A DNA stretch of 64,000 nt from Salinisphaera sp. (GTDB lineage Bacteria; Pseudomonadota; Gammaproteobacteria; Nevskiales; Salinisphaeraceae). The translations under genes were made by a program, and so were the position numbers. Positions 6,693-18,733 of the stretch are shown in pieces; within the stretch, counting starts at the first letter, position 1; each line of letters starts with the position of its first letter. A model generated the notes under the pieces. That model did no database searches. It saw only the letters and a program-made list of their open reading frames with translations, and had not been told where the DNA came from. The stretch lies in contig JAQIBT010000085.1 of the NCBI GenBank assembly GCA_027858915.1, positions 1 through 64,000 on the forward strand. The letters run 5' to 3'.

Positions 6693-8599
6693 ACCATCGA
6701 TCCCCAGACACCCAGCGTCGCCGTATTCTGCAGGCCATGGCCGCCGGCGGCATGCTTGCCGGTCTTGACATGTTCCTGCCCGGCGTCTCATATGCCCAGG
6801 CGATGCGTACCGCCGGGGAAGCCGCTCGAGTCAAGGGCGGTACGGCGCGTTCGGTCACGCGCGATTTCCATATCCGCTCGGAACGCATTGCGATCGCGGC
6901 CGGCCACGCCACGGCCAACACGGTTGACCATGGTGTACCCGGCCCGCTGCTGGAACTCTGGCAGGGCCACAATGCACGCCTGCGCGTGCACAATCATCTG
7001 AGCAGCGACATCACTTCACTCCACTGGCACGGCATTCTGCTACCGTTCGAGCTGGACGGCGTGCCCGGCGTGTCCTTCCCGGGCGTAGCCGCGGGCGATA
7101 CCTTTCAGGCCTATTTTCCGGTGCGCCAGTCCGGCACCTACTGGTATCATAGCCACGCCGGTTTCCAGGAGCAGATCGGCCAGATCGGGCCGATCGTGAT
7201 CCACCCGTCAGAGCCCCAGTCCAATCCGGCCGATCGCGAATATGTCGTCGTGCTGACCGACTGGACGTTCGAGGCTCCGGCGCGGCTGTTCGCCAAGCTC
7301 AAGGAATCCAGCGACTACTACAATTTCAATCAGCGCACGCTGGTTGATCTGGTCGACGAGGTCGAAAAGCAAGGGCTGACGAAAACCCTTCAGACCCGCA
7401 TGGCATGGAACCAGATGCGCATGAGTCCGCGCGATATCGCCGATGTGACCGCTTCGACCTATACCTATCTGATGAACGGACAGCACCCGGCGGCTAACTG
7501 GACCGGGCTGTTCAAACCCGGCGAACGCATCAAACTGCGGGTAATCAACGCCTCGTCGATGACGTATTTCAACGTCCGTATTCCCGGTCTGCCAATGACC
7601 GTGGTCGCCGCCGACGGCCAGAACATCGATCCGGTCGACACCGACGAGTTTCAGATCGCGGTGGCCGAAACCTATGACGTGATCGTCAAACCGGATGCCG
7701 ACACCGCCTATACGATCATGGCCGAATCGATGGACCGGTCGGGTTATACCCGCGGCACGCTTGCGCCGAGGTCCGGAATGGCCGCCGCGGTGCCGGCCCT
7801 GCGTCCGCCGCCGACCCGCACCATGATCGATATGGGCATGCCAATGAAGAGCATGGCGATGGGCAACGATAAATCCGACCAGAGCATGGCGATGGCTGGT
7901 CGCCATTCGTCTGCATCCGACAGCGATAATAAAACGACGACGACAATGGGCGGCATGGCTGGCATGCCCGCCCACGGCATGCCCGGCCCCGGCAAGGCCG
8001 CTGGCGGTTCGAGCTCGGCCATGGCCGATATGGGCATGGACAATTCTGGCCCGGTGATCGCCCATCACGCCCCGAACAATTACGGCGTTGGCAATATCAA
8101 CGTCGCCGAGGCCGAACGGTATCGGCTGGCCGACCGCCCGACCGGGCTGGCCGATGTCGAGCATCGTGTACTGACCTACAGCCAGCTGCGCAATGTCGTG
8201 GTGCCGCCGGATACGCGCAAGCCGTCGAAGACTGTCGAAGTCCATCTCACCGGCAACATGGACCGCTATATGTGGTCGTTCAACGGCCGCGAGTATTCGC
8301 AGGCCAAGCCAATCGAGTTCCCCTACGGCGATCGCATTCGGTTGATTCTGGTCAACGACACCATGATGGAGCATCCGATTCATCTCCACGGCATGTTCAT
8401 GGAACTGGAAAACCATCAGGGTGACCACCGGCCTTACAAGCACACCATCAGCGTGTTGCCAGGTTCACGGGTATCGCTGTTGGTGACCGCAGACGAACCG
8501 GGCCGCTGGGCCTTCCACTGCCATCTGCTCTACCACATGGAAGCCGGCATGTTCCGTGTAGTGCGCGTCGCTCCGGCCTCGGAGATTGAGCATGCCTGA
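6689..8599 (+). CDS. copA: Copper resistance multicopper oxidase CopA
   Basis: 636 residues. A Tat signal with RRR at 10-12 exports the folded, copper-loaded enzyme to the periplasm. Cupredoxin copper ligands are complete: LHWHGILLPF (about 111-120), YWYHSHAGF (141-149), HPIHLHGMF and FHCHLLYHMEAGMFRVV near the C-terminus. Between the second and third cupredoxin domains lies a Met-rich insertion (about residues 355-450, many MxM, MGM and MAM motifs) typical of CopA/PcoA for binding Cu(I). It oxidises Cu(I) and sequesters copper. It overlaps the preceding gene by ATGA and copB by eight bases, so translation is coupled. Confidence 0.97.
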   Translation: MNHRSPDTQRRRILQAMAAGGMLAGLDMFLPGVSYAQAMRTAGEAARVKGGTARSVTRDFHIRSERIAIAAGHATANTVDHGVPGPLLELWQGHNARLRVHNHLSSDITSLHWHGILLPFELDGVPGVSFPGVAAGDTFQAYFPVRQSGTYWYHSHAGFQEQIGQIGPIVIHPSEPQSNPADREYVVVLTDWTFEAPARLFAKLKESSDYYNFNQRTLVDLVDEVEKQGLTKTLQTRMAWNQMRMSPRDIADVTASTYTYLMNGQHPAANWTGLFKPGERIKLRVINASSMTYFNVRIPGLPMTVVAADGQNIDPVDTDEFQIAVAETYDVIVKPDADTAYTIMAESMDRSGYTRGTLAPRSGMAAAVPALRPPPTRTMIDMGMPMKSMAMGNDKSDQSMAMAGRHSSASDSDNKTTTTMGGMAGMPAHGMPGPGKAAGGSSSAMADMGMDNSGPVIAHHAPNNYGVGNINVAEAERYRLADRPTGLADVEHRVLTYSQLRNVVVPPDTRKPSKTVEVHLTGNMDRYMWSFNGREYSQAKPIEFPYGDRIRLILVNDTMMEHPIHLHGMFMELENHQGDHRPYKHTISVLPGSRVSLLVTADEPGRWAFHCHLLYHMEAGMFRVVRVAPASEIEHA

Positions 8600-9401
8600 G
8601 CTGATGCAGCGAACAAGGATGGGGATTGCACTTGTGCTGGCCAGCGTCGCGTTGCCGGCAGCAGCTGCCAATCCGCCTGGCAAAGCGAATCCGAACAGTG
8701 TCGTACCAGGCGGAGCGGCAAACCCGTCCAGCGGCGCGCCGGCGAACTGGACTCCGCCGATTCACGATGACGCCATCCATCAATACACCAGCATCAACCG
8801 GCTGGAGTACGGCACCGGCAACGCTCCCAGTAGTTACCTTTGGGAAGGCCAGGGCTGGGTCGGCGGCGATATCAATCGCTTCTGGTGGAAGACCGAAGGC
8901 GAAGGCGCGAACGCGGGCGGCTCGCCGGACTCGACCTCGTTCGAAGCCGACTACGGACGCGCGATCACGCCGTTCTGGAACGCACTGATCGGGGGACGCT
9001 ACGACCTTTATCCCAGCAGTAATCGTGCGTTCGGCATGCTCAAGCTGCAGGGTCTGACCCCGCTGTATCTCGACACCGAACTCTCGGTGTACGTCAGCCA
9101 GGACGGCGTGCCCAGCTTCCGCGGCGAATTCCAATACGAGCCATTAATCAGCCAGCGACTGCGCCTGGCACCGCGAGCCGAAATCAATATCGGCGCGCGC
9201 GATGCCGGTTATGGCTTGGGTGGTGGCCTCCAGAACACTCAACTAGGCCTTCGCTTGAAATATCAGGTCCGGCGAGAGCTCGTGCCTTACATCGGCGTAC
9301 GTTGGGAACAAAAATACGGCGATACCGCCGACATTGCCCGAGCCGAAGGCCAGAACACTTCGTCGACCGCGTTCGTCGTCGGACTGAGCGCTTGGTATTA
9401 G
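8592..9401 (+). CDS. copB: Copper resistance outer-membrane protein CopB
   Basis: 269 residues from ATG 8592. A TTG two codons earlier is possible, but GGAG at 8581-8584 fits the ATG. A signal peptide (LVLASVALPAAAANPP) is followed by a beta-barrel of the CopB/PcoB family. Characteristic segments are NRLEYGTGN, LWEGQGWVGGDINRFWWKTEGE, TPFWNALIGGRYD and near the end VPYIGVRWEQKYGDTADIA, finishing in a terminal aromatic (AWY) as outer-membrane barrels do. The N-terminal Met/His-rich stretch seen in some homologues is short here. It lies directly after copA and partners it in periplasmic copper resistance. Confidence 0.95.
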   Translation: MPELMQRTRMGIALVLASVALPAAAANPPGKANPNSVVPGGAANPSSGAPANWTPPIHDDAIHQYTSINRLEYGTGNAPSSYLWEGQGWVGGDINRFWWKTEGEGANAGGSPDSTSFEADYGRAITPFWNALIGGRYDLYPSSNRAFGMLKLQGLTPLYLDTELSVYVSQDGVPSFRGEFQYEPLISQRLRLAPRAEINIGARDAGYGLGGGLQNTQLGLRLKYQVRRELVPYIGVRWEQKYGDTADIARAEGQNTSSTAFVVGLSAWY

Positions 9402-12085: not shown

Positions 12086-12124
12086 ACGAAACGACGGCAG
12101 GAAAATTGAATATATTGTAGTTGG

Positions 12125-12150
12125 AAGGGCAACGTGTGTTGCCCTTTTTT
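12125..12150 (+). terminator. Rho-independent terminator
   Basis: AAGGGCAAC, loop GTGT, GTTGCCCTT, then a run of T. It ends the Met/His-rich gene transcript. Confidence 0.85.
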
Positions 12151-12177
12151 GTTGTTGCTCCGAGCATGCCAAACTCT

Positions 12178-12459
12178 TGCAACGGCCTGTTGATTACGAC
12201 GAGCGAACTGAAATGCGTTGCGGCATCAACCCCAATCCCGATCGGCGCGTCGCGGTGCTGGGTATTCAAGGGTTGGCACCGTCCGGTTCGTAAGCGAAGA
12301 CGGCGATGTGACTTTCGCTATGAAATTCGACGCGAGTGTGCGCCTTGCATCGGTGTGCGATGGAAACAGAAATACGGTGGTACAGAGGATATCGCACAGG
12401 CCTAAGGAGAGGCGACCTCATCGACCGCCTTCGTGTCAGGCGTTCGCGCCTGGTTCTGA
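12178..12459 (+). pseudogene. Second copB, 3' remnant
   Basis: In one frame the sequence reads RYEIRRECAPCIGVRWKQKY, GGTEDIAQA, a TAA at 12403-12405, then GEATSSTAFVSGVRAWF and a stop. This lines up with the last 50 residues of the CopB encoded at 8.6-9.4 kb (KYQVRRELVPYIGVRWEQKY, and SSTAFVVGLSAWY at the end). About 40 codons before it there is a weaker match (SELKCVAASTPIPIG). Similarity is good but not near-identity, so it is an old paralogue or a second cop operon, not a recent duplication. Confidence 0.8.
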
Positions 12460-12968
12460 CTGGCGGCTGACTCGTACTGGTATCAAGGAGATGATGTAGG
12501 CAAGGCGCGCCGAAACCGCCGGCCTCGAGTACGCCGACCGGTAACCGCTGGGGTACGAAAACCGCACGCGGTGGCGCCCAGCCGCCGATAGAACCGGTAT
12601 TCTTTAGTCCTTTCGTCGTGTGCGCTGACACATCGAACGAGAGCGTAGCGGGTGGCCTGCCGCCTTTTCGGCTCAGACCAAATGACAGAAGAGACGGTGC
12701 ACCGATCATGACGGGGCTGATTGTCGAGCCTCGTTTTTCGTTGACAGCGTTTTAACGGTCTTATATACGTATGCAGTCGGGCACAATAGGAGATCGCCTT
12801 AAACTGCGGCAACGTGCTGTTGGCACAGGGTCTTGATCTACGCTGATGGCGACCGGGGCAGCGTTAGTAATGGGCCATCGTGGTTGTATCGAATAGGAAT
12901 TGCTCGACGATCGGGGATCGGACTTGACTCGTCCGGTGTGAACAATCTCAGGGAGAGGGACTTCGAAC
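12460..12968 (+). other. Degraded region between copB remnant and porin
   Basis: No intact gene is visible. On the minus strand around 12560-12660 a short stretch (DERTKEYRFYRRLGATA) resembles the end of a GNAT acetyltransferase (FYRRLGA), but the rest of the fold is not seen. The last 250 bases probably contain the porin promoter. CAGGGAGAGGG at 12949-12959 serves as ribosome site for the ATG at 12969. Confidence 0.35.
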
Positions 12969-15946: not shown

Positions 15947-16179
15947 GCTGCAGGCTCGACCGCGACCGCAGTGCTTCATTTTCACGCCAGCGGGCCGATT
16001 CAGTGGCGAGGTGCGCGATTGGATGAATCGCCACGATGCCGGCTGGACGCGCTTACGGCCTGCGGGTTGGCCGGCCATCACTCTTGCCTGCCGTGCGGTG
16101 CTATGGCCTACCGGCTGTGGCCCGTTTTTCCGTGTTCGGGAATTGTATTCATGATGCCTTGTTCCGCTCGTCGTCTTCC

Positions 16180-17661
16180 ATGACAGAGAGCGACTCTCCG
16201 ATCGAACCACTCAACCGGGCTGGCGACGAACGCTCGCGTCTGGCACTGCAGCGCATGGAACGGGCGTTGGTGCGCGCCTGGCTAGCTGCCTCCGATCAAT
16301 TGCCGGACGCCGATTATCAGACCCTGCGCTATGCAATCGGCCTGGCGCGCCTGCATGAATTTGCGCCTGCTAATCAGCCTGACGCCGCCGACGTGCGTAT
16401 CGATCCGCAGACAGTATTGCCGCTGCGCGACTGGCTGCTGACTCATCTGCACGACCTCTTGCGCTCGCCGACTTCGGCGGTCGAGAAGCTGACTGCCTGC
16501 CGCGAGGCGATTCATCACTGTCGCGGTCTGGCGATCACAGTACGCCGGCAACTCCTGGATACCCATGTCGATGCGTTCGACGCCGAGGCGCTGGATCGCG
16601 AGGCAGGTCAACGTGCGCTCGTGGTGGTGGCCGGTGGTGGCGGTGGCGCCGGCTATGTGTATTCCGGCGCGTTTGCGCGGCTCGACGACGCGGGCCTGAT
16701 CCCTGATTACATCGTGGGAAATTCGATTGGGGCTATTCTCGGTTTGTTCCGCGCCCAGCGTCGCCATGGCGATCAACGAGAGTACATCGAATTCGCCAGC
16801 ACCTTGAAAAAACGCGACATATTCACGCCGTCGCGCCGCCGCCGCGAATTCTGCCTTGGCGGTCTGCTGCATCTGCACCTCAGAGCCCTGCATCGACGCA
16901 TGTCCGTGGGCCCGCTGCGTCGGCCGCTGCGGCTCGACGAGATGGAGATTCCGTTGGATATCGTGGTCGCCGGCCTGCGCCGGCGTCCGTATGAAAAACT
17001 CGGCGCCGACATGCGCGAGCCGAATCGCGGGCCGCAGCGGTTTCTGCCGATGCCGTTGCGGGTGGCCGCTCGCCTGACACGGCTGCTGCAGTTCTTTCGC
17101 AGCGACATGGTCGAGCCGATCGTGCTGGGACGCGATACCACCACGCGGGCCGTACATGCCGTCGATGCGGTGGGCTTTTCCGCAGCGGTGCCCACTATCC
17201 TGCAATATGAGCCGGGGCCGACCGCCGGTGTGACGCGTGAGATATTTGCCGAGCTGATGTATCGGCACGAACTGACAGCGATCGTCGATGGTGGTGTCGC
17301 CGACAACGTGCCCGCGCGTGCGGCCTGGCGTGGTATCGCCGCTGGTCGGGCGCGAACCCGCAATGCTTATTATCTGGCGTTCGATTGCTTTGTGCCGCGT
17401 TTGGACCCGAAGAATCTATGGCTCTGGCCCATCATGCAGACCGTGCAGATGCAGATGCGCGTCAATCGGGTCTATGCCGATACCATGGTCCGGTTCCATC
17501 GCACGCTCTCACCGATGAATATCGTGCCGCAGGCGGACGCCCTGCAAATGGCAATGGGTTGGGGCTATGAACAAATGGACACTCAACTGGCGGAGGTTCA
17601 AGAAATGATGCGCCCGGTTCGGCTCGACGGGGCAGCCGACGTCCCGGTTCGTCGGGCATGA
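16180..17661 (+). CDS. Patatin-like phospholipase
   Basis: 493 residues from ATG 16180. The patatin core starts near residue 150: oxyanion loop VVVAGGGGGAGYVYSGAFA, nucleophile motif GNSIGAILG (Ser about 186) and catalytic Asp in VDGGVADNVPARAA (about 370), giving the Ser-Asp dyad. The first 140 residues are helical and specific to this subgroup, related to DUF3336-like N-terminal extensions of bacterial and fungal patatins. No signal peptide, so cytoplasmic or membrane-attached. It should hydrolyse acyl esters of phospholipids or neutral lipids. The next gene, a voltage-sensor-like membrane protein, begins 16 bases after the stop, so the pair is probably co-transcribed. Confidence 0.88.
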   Translation: MTESDSPIEPLNRAGDERSRLALQRMERALVRAWLAASDQLPDADYQTLRYAIGLARLHEFAPANQPDAADVRIDPQTVLPLRDWLLTHLHDLLRSPTSAVEKLTACREAIHHCRGLAITVRRQLLDTHVDAFDAEALDREAGQRALVVVAGGGGGAGYVYSGAFARLDDAGLIPDYIVGNSIGAILGLFRAQRRHGDQREYIEFASTLKKRDIFTPSRRRREFCLGGLLHLHLRALHRRMSVGPLRRPLRLDEMEIPLDIVVAGLRRRPYEKLGADMREPNRGPQRFLPMPLRVAARLTRLLQFFRSDMVEPIVLGRDTTTRAVHAVDAVGFSAAVPTILQYEPGPTAGVTREIFAELMYRHELTAIVDGGVADNVPARAAWRGIAAGRARTRNAYYLAFDCFVPRLDPKNLWLWPIMQTVQMQMRVNRVYADTMVRFHRTLSPMNIVPQADALQMAMGWGYEQMDTQLAEVQEMMRPVRLDGAADVPVRRA

Positions 17662-17677
17662 ACTCGAGCCGCCCGGC

Positions 17678-18733
17678 ATGAATACGCAGCGTCGTCGTCC
17701 GCCGAGCCCGCTGGACGTGGTCAGCTCGGAGAAAACACTCTCCGAGCGGCTGTACCTGCTTTGGGATCTGTCGATTGTGGCGGTGGTTTCGGTCAACCTC
17801 ACCTTGATCGTGATTGATGCCCTGTATTCAGTCGGATTCGTCCAACAGATGCTCGCCGCCGCGTCACCGGCGGCTCACGACTGGTATGCCGGTGCCATCC
17901 ACCAGCATTTCATGCAGATCGATCTGGCATTCGTCGCGGTCCTGGTGGCCGACGTACTGGCCGGCTGGGCGCTGGCGATCGTTCAACGACGCTATTACCG
18001 CTGGTATTTCTATCCGTTTGTGCGCTGGTACGACGTGCTTGGCTGCGTGCCGATCGCGGCCTTCCGTTTTTTGCGCGTACTGCGTGTGATCTCCATCGTC
18101 ATGCGCCTGCAGCGGCTCGGCGTCATCGATATCCGGCACTGGTGGCTATGGCGCAATGCGGCGGTCTATTACGACATCGTGGTCGAGGAAATTTCCGATC
18201 ATGTGGTTATCAAGGTGCTTTCCGGCGCCCAGGACGAGCTCAAGAGTGGTGGCCAGCAGCTGTCGCGGCAGATCGTCGAGGAGGTCATCGCGCCGCGCCA
18301 GCAGCGTCTCACGCGGGCGGCCAGTGCGCAGATTGAAAACGCCGTGGTTTCGGCCTATCAGAGCAATCGCGATCAGATCCAGGCTTACGTCGCCAATATT
18401 GTGGGCCGGGCGGTTGATGAGAATATGGCACTGAAGAACGTCGAACGCGTACCCATGCTGGGGAGTTTTGTCAGCCGAGCGCTGGACGCGGCCATCCGGG
18501 ATACCGTCAATCACGTACTCGACGAAGCAGTGAACGGTCTGTCGTCCGAAGAATTCGATGAACTGTTAGCCAATATCGTCGAAAGCGCGATCCAGCGGCT
18601 GTTGTCCGAGGATATCGGCCAGGCTTCGGGCGAGGTCCGGGATGCCACCGTGGAAGTATTGGAACTGGTCAAGGAACAGGTGGCCGTACAGCGCTGGCGC
18701 GAGCATTTCGAGGAGTCGGCCCACCGAGGATGA
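17678..18733 (+). CDS. Voltage-sensor-like membrane protein without a pore domain
   Basis: 351 residues. Four hydrophobic segments fill residues about 28-150. The first is LSIVAVVSVNLTLIVIDAL. The second is acidic (QIDLAFVAVLVADVLAGWAL). The third starts FYPFVRWYDVLGCVPIAAF. The fourth is Arg-studded (RFLRVLRVISIVMRLQRLG), with arginines spaced by three like an S4 voltage sensor. No S5-P-S6 pore follows. Instead there are about 190 cytoplasmic, helical, charged residues (SGAQDELKSGGQQLSRQI and on). Similar genes exist as hypothetical membrane proteins. It is the second gene of a probable operon with the patatin. Function unknown; the fold call is from pattern only. Confidence 0.6.
   Translation: MNTQRRRPPSPLDVVSSEKTLSERLYLLWDLSIVAVVSVNLTLIVIDALYSVGFVQQMLAAASPAAHDWYAGAIHQHFMQIDLAFVAVLVADVLAGWALAIVQRRYYRWYFYPFVRWYDVLGCVPIAAFRFLRVLRVISIVMRLQRLGVIDIRHWWLWRNAAVYYDIVVEEISDHVVIKVLSGAQDELKSGGQQLSRQIVEEVIAPRQQRLTRAASAQIENAVVSAYQSNRDQIQAYVANIVGRAVDENMALKNVERVPMLGSFVSRALDAAIRDTVNHVLDEAVNGLSSEEFDELLANIVESAIQRLLSEDIGQASGEVRDATVEVLELVKEQVAVQRWREHFEESAHRG

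Follow-up and report, generated by a model that had tools for sequence, protein, structure and literature searches.

Pore-less voltage-sensor domains (VSDs) are known from eukaryotes (PMC13095418; PMC3440755; PMC5938591), and so are proteins that respond to voltage but are not channels, namely the voltage-sensing phosphatases (VSPs), Hv1 and TMEM266. Kumanovics et al., 2002 (as cited in PMC3982104) proposed that the VSD originated before it became coupled to pores. Here we analyse a window of 64,000 nucleotides from Salinisphaera sp., whose closest public genomes are likewise Salinisphaera, and which encodes a 351-residue protein (17678–18733, + strand) that shares features with several described systems. 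Like the VSPs (Ci-VSP, TPTE), it combines S1–S4 without a pore with a cytoplasmic part; whereas VSPs carry their enzyme in the same chain, its tail is all-helical without an enzyme match, and the lipase beside it is a separate gene, found there in one genus. It shares with Hv1 and TMEM266 a stand-alone VSD whose S4 bears three arginines, followed by a helical tail, but appears to have Asn40 where the mid-S1 Asp is expected, and has a much longer conserved tail and a bacterial origin. Its S1–S3 are homologous to those of bacterial Nav and Kv channels (NavAb type, PF00520), with which it also shares the spacing of the S4 arginines, but it is without S5, pore loop and S6. No description of a bacterial family of pore-less VSDs was found in the literature searched, although subscription papers may hold one. 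A widespread family with strict gating charges and a conserved output domain would let bacteria convert membrane potential directly into a signal, and this one is concealed by misannotations such as “preprotein translocase subunit SecA”.

The AF2 model of the protein (mean pLDDT 79, pTM 0.49, from a 57-sequence alignment) has four membrane helices followed by helices alone up to residue 350. S1 spans residues 21–51 (17738–17830; this and all following features of the patatin–sensor locus lie on the + strand) and contains the nearly invariant D30, N40 and D47; S2 spans residues 78–103 (17909–17986) and carries D82-(7)-Leu89-(3)-D92. S3 is placed at residues 108–126 (17999–18055; AF2 helix 111–121), with the pattern W-Y-D119-x-L-G-C-x-P, on the basis of AF2, conservation and the alignment with bacterial channels, and S4 at residues 127–146 (18056–18115), with R130, R133, R136, R143 and R146, from AF2 and conservation. 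The remainder, residues 151–351 (18128–18730), is assigned to a cytoplasmic all-helical domain by AF2, hydrophobicity and conservation. An S5–pore loop–S6 unit is absent from the chain, as judged from the hydrophobicity of 80 family members and the AF2 model of the window protein, because the segments after S4 are too little hydrophobic to cross the membrane: the Kyte–Doolittle-19 maximum after S4 is 0.95 in the window protein, against 2.3–2.4 for S1 and S2, and at most 1.07 among the 80 members, window protein included. The initial annotation had described an S1–S4-like domain with arginines at every third residue of S4, acidic residues in helices two and three, and a cytoplasmic helical domain in place of a pore; the modelled topology and the lack of a hydrophobic segment after S4 agree with that description, and the charge pattern is invariant or nearly so among the homologues.

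R130, R133 and R136 of S4 (R-x-x-R-x-x-R) are invariant in 99 of 99 homologues, and R143 is kept in 97. The acidic positions are similarly constrained, with Asp at position 82 of S2 in 96/99 and Asp or Glu at position 92 of S2 (D92 in the window copy) and position 119 of S3 (D119 in the window copy) in 99/99. At position 89 of S2, the aromatic of the charge-transfer centre, Phe or Tyr is found in 94 homologues and Phe in 91 of the 99; the window copy deviates here, with Leu instead of Phe (17942–17944). The 7/3 spacing of acid, aromatic and acid in S2 is that of Kv channels. Within the window, RxxRxxR in a hydrophobic context occurs in the S4 of this protein alone among 283 open segments of at least 100 aa.

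Profile comparisons place the family next to the voltage-gated channels. Pfam Ion_trans (PF00520) matches 54 of 57 relatives (best 2.6e-5), with no match on the window protein itself, and shorter pore-less relatives match it at up to 1.5e-10, though only over ~114 positions at the start of the 241-position profile. With hhalign, the family aligns with bacterial Nav/Kv channels (26 Ion_trans loci of the same class, most with a Nav or Kv filter motif) at a probability of 95.9 and E 5.6e-9, over S1–S3 only; since this alignment stops at S3, the assignment of S4 depends on its pattern, spacing and conservation. The initial annotation had proposed comparing a structure prediction with voltage-sensor folds, and the outcome was divided: the predicted four membrane helices stood, and VSD channels did head the PDB matches, but weakly. 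Foldseek and VIA placed NavAb, NavCt and CavAb on top (missing Hv1 or VSP entries were not counted as evidence), but the best Foldseek match, NavAb, had E 2.4, and the VIA Z of 7.8 is no higher than values obtained by chance with helical models. The fold claim therefore depends on sequence and topology, and on that basis the protein is confirmed as a voltage-sensor-like membrane protein without an ion pore.

The cytoplasmic domain has conserved sites of its own. E170 and D174 are invariant, and E171, Q185, P206 and R207 nearly so, among the 99 homologues. Pfam and PDB searches with this domain gave no convincing match, and no enzyme family scored above its Pfam cut-off in residues 151–351; weak Pfam matches to TPR_DNAAF5, PGDH_C, DUF445 and GlutR_dimer were judged to be chance for a helical sequence.

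Upstream lies a gene for a patatin-like phospholipase of 493 aa (16180–17661), with PF01734 matching at residues 150–383 (E 1.9e-20). Its sequence has all the expected features—the GxSxG nucleophile, DG[GA] and a glycine-rich oxyanion loop—with the predicted catalytic Ser182 (GNSIG, 16723–16725) and Asp370 (DGG, 17287–17289) in invariant columns, and GGGGGAG, GNS(I/M)G and DGG are kept in 13/13 Salinisphaera copies; it is a predicted phospholipase with intact catalytic residues. The active-site block is that of PlpD-type patatins (5fqu), but the match to these is marginal (E 0.06–0.1) and the window patatin has its own N-terminal helical region. This conserved stretch of ~140 aa (16180–16620) is without a Pfam match and is also kept in the orthologues that other families of the order carry. 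For the patatin, AF2 gave a poor model (pLDDT 52, 11 sequences), which was set aside. As initially annotated, the sensor gene follows the patatin gene after exactly 16 bases (17662–17677); in most other Salinisphaera the two overlap by 4 bp (stop/start). A scan found no promoter-like site between them, and the two genes are probably co-transcribed in Salinisphaera. A terminator-like hairpin upstream of the patatin gene (16100–16121), found by consensus scan only, may separate the pair from the preceding gene.

Each of the 13 sensor-bearing Salinisphaera genomes has patatin directly 5′ of the sensor, and one further genome of the genus, 81% complete, is without both genes. At 70 loci outside Salinisphaera, examined with as much as 5 kb of flanking sequence, neither this patatin nor a patatin-like motif pair was found near the sensor (0/70), and the linkage is also absent at the sensor loci examined in more distant lineages. 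The gene upstream of the sensor varies by lineage: a 4HBT thioesterase at 35 loci, patatin at 10, an RF-1-domain protein at 6 and a small coiled-coil protein at 6, with PduO in Pseudomonas, a PF01553 acyltransferase in Acinetobacter and, at two sister-genus loci within the family, msrA. Seen from the patatin, orthologues of full or nearly full length (about 340–466 bits) are present in 20 further genomes of the order; none at full length was found in the three sister-genus genomes. At 10 of these orthologue loci, read over ~5 kb to either side except on a short contig that offered less, the sensor gene was never alongside (0/10). Among 47 genomes of the order outside the genus that both the sensor and the patatin search covered, 8 have both genes, 19 the sensor only, 3 the patatin only and 17 neither, which gives no convincing association, with the proviso that near-threshold sensor matches may be missed; in the 8 with both, the genes lie on separate contigs or far apart. 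An obligate patatin–sensor pair is rejected on the strength of this context. The coupling to patatin put forward in the initial annotation thus stands as an operon-like layout fixed over Salinisphaera, and fails as recurrent linkage outside that genus.

Because the linkage is confined to Salinisphaera, the sensor is best seen as an independent, older module that acquired its patatin neighbour once; most simply, the pairing arose when patatin became the neighbour of the older gene, and loss of the pairing elsewhere in place of a single origin is conceivable. Taken together, the data make it probable that the protein is a stand-alone voltage sensor with a putative cytoplasmic helical output domain and not a dedicated patatin subunit, and that its family is ancient, separate and moves between operons in Gammaproteobacteria; this judgement applies to those points jointly. 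We infer a voltage response, an output and a partner as follows: S1–S4 would form the VSD, with the S4 arginines facing a Kv-type charge-transfer centre, and S4 would run on into the cytoplasmic helical output domain in place of a pore, so that a change in membrane potential would shift S4 and with it the juxtamembrane helix bearing the invariant E170 and D174, which would act through the helical tail on a cytosolic partner. The Leu of the window copy in the charge-transfer centre, the weak Foldseek and VIA matches and the end of the hhalign alignment at S3 count against this explanation. The VSD fold might instead have been retained for osmotic, lipid or membrane-tension sensing, or for anchoring, with no voltage-driven movement. 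Many members come from halophiles, and sequence alone cannot reveal the voltage sensitivity of a fold, but strict S4 arginines with S2 and S3 counter-charges are the requirements of a working voltage sensor, and we regard such a role as unlikely. A bacterial proton channel resembling Hv1, in which protons would pass through the VSD itself and the helical tail would serve for dimerisation, appears distinctly improbable. Such a channel would account for the shared plan, with four helices, no pore and a helical tail in the cytoplasm, and for the three arginines of S4, and the S1 acids D30 and D47 are nearly invariant. Hv1, however, requires an Asp in mid-S1 (Asp112 in human Hv1; PMC5938591), and the apparent mid-S1 polar position here is Asn40 in 97/99 homologues; in our own judgement the tail of ~200 residues, with its conserved sites, also far exceeds the need for a short coiled coil.

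The remaining alternative to a stand-alone sensor is a two-protein voltage-controlled lipase, whose sensor tail would bind the patatin and release or activate it on depolarisation. The pair fixed in every sensor-bearing Salinisphaera genome, mostly with the 4-bp overlap, the lack of a promoter-like site between the genes and the intact catalytic residues all speak for it. Against it stand the sensor loci without patatin, the patatin orthologues without sensor and the genomes in which both genes are present and non-adjacent. Further genes around the pair are likewise kept within Salinisphaera, so adjacency by itself is a weak argument, and the sensor packs equally tightly behind unrelated partners such as PduO. 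Nor is the tail unusually constrained beside patatin: the ratio of tail to VSD identity is 1.02 in patatin-linked copies, against 0.99 for Salinicola and 0.97 for a second group lacking the linkage, and an initial signal of a specialised cytoplasmic domain in the linked copies was gone on comparison within other genera. We therefore hold the lipase mechanism to be rather unlikely, and give no better prospects to its broader form, in which Salinisphaera would have recruited the sensor for its patatin as a membrane-potential-gated phospholipase while the family serves as a portable voltage-sensing module often touching acyl-lipid enzymes. In three separate lineages the gene directly 5′ of the sensor does encode such an enzyme (patatin, acyl-CoA thioesterase or acyltransferase), a possible lead that was spotted post hoc. 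A functional link of sensor and patatin specific to Salinisphaera is possible.

For a role in phage defence, also raised in the initial annotation, neither the two proteins nor the tested neighbours gave any signal. PADLOC gave no match on the patatin, and among ten neighbouring genes the only defence-related matches were those of an ABC-transporter ATPase, judged generic. Anti-phage patatin systems (CBASS CapV and others) differ in having cyclase or defence genes nearby, which were not seen among these neighbours. A Csm2 match of the helical tail (0.0017) was marginal and judged to be chance for a helical sequence. Matches of the sensor in phage and plasmid records proved to be Acinetobacter stretches of chromosomal type and a Halomonas megaplasmid, not mobile defence. 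The records named “Acinetobacter phage MD-2021a” (L129, CAKLQH020000030.1) carry minCDE, ftsK, rep and dut besides the sensor gene and are probably bacterial contigs.

Besides Salinisphaera and other members of its family, the long form of the sensor is widespread in Halomonadaceae, Salinicola, Pseudomonas, Acinetobacter and others, with 350 confirmed loci in the genome contigs searched; a sample of 398 genomes from the phylum contained it in 20, all of them Gammaproteobacteria. Members are annotated as “hypothetical” or, wrongly, as “SecA”: the Acinetobacter baumannii homologue (L127:5950–6996; L129:7950–8996) bears the latter name and lies directly 3′ of a PF01553 acyltransferase (YihG-like) and 5′ of minCDE. 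Other families of the order have short VSD proteins (~250–330 aa; loci L020–L030) that are likewise pore-less, with S4 arginines and a helical tail; they share ~30% identity with the sensor across stretches of the VSD and the beginning of the tail, and are likely a sister subfamily. In many Halomonadaceae (35 loci, within L054–L117) the sensor gene lies 3′ of an acyl-CoA-thioesterase-like (4HBT) gene that often has a short-chain fatty acid transporter gene before it, and this thioesterase neighbourhood outnumbers the patatin one. A record named Endozoicomonas sp. G2_2 (L055, NZ_JAGHQU010000005.1) holds a typical Salinisphaera patatin–sensor locus, and its name is probably wrong. Elsewhere in the window, a frame near 12.2–12.4 kb (12120–12500) contains a fragment, GVRWKQKYGGTEDIAQA, that resembles the C-terminus, GVRWEQKYGDTADIARA, of the protein encoded at 8586–9401 and is perhaps the remnant of a duplicated copy.
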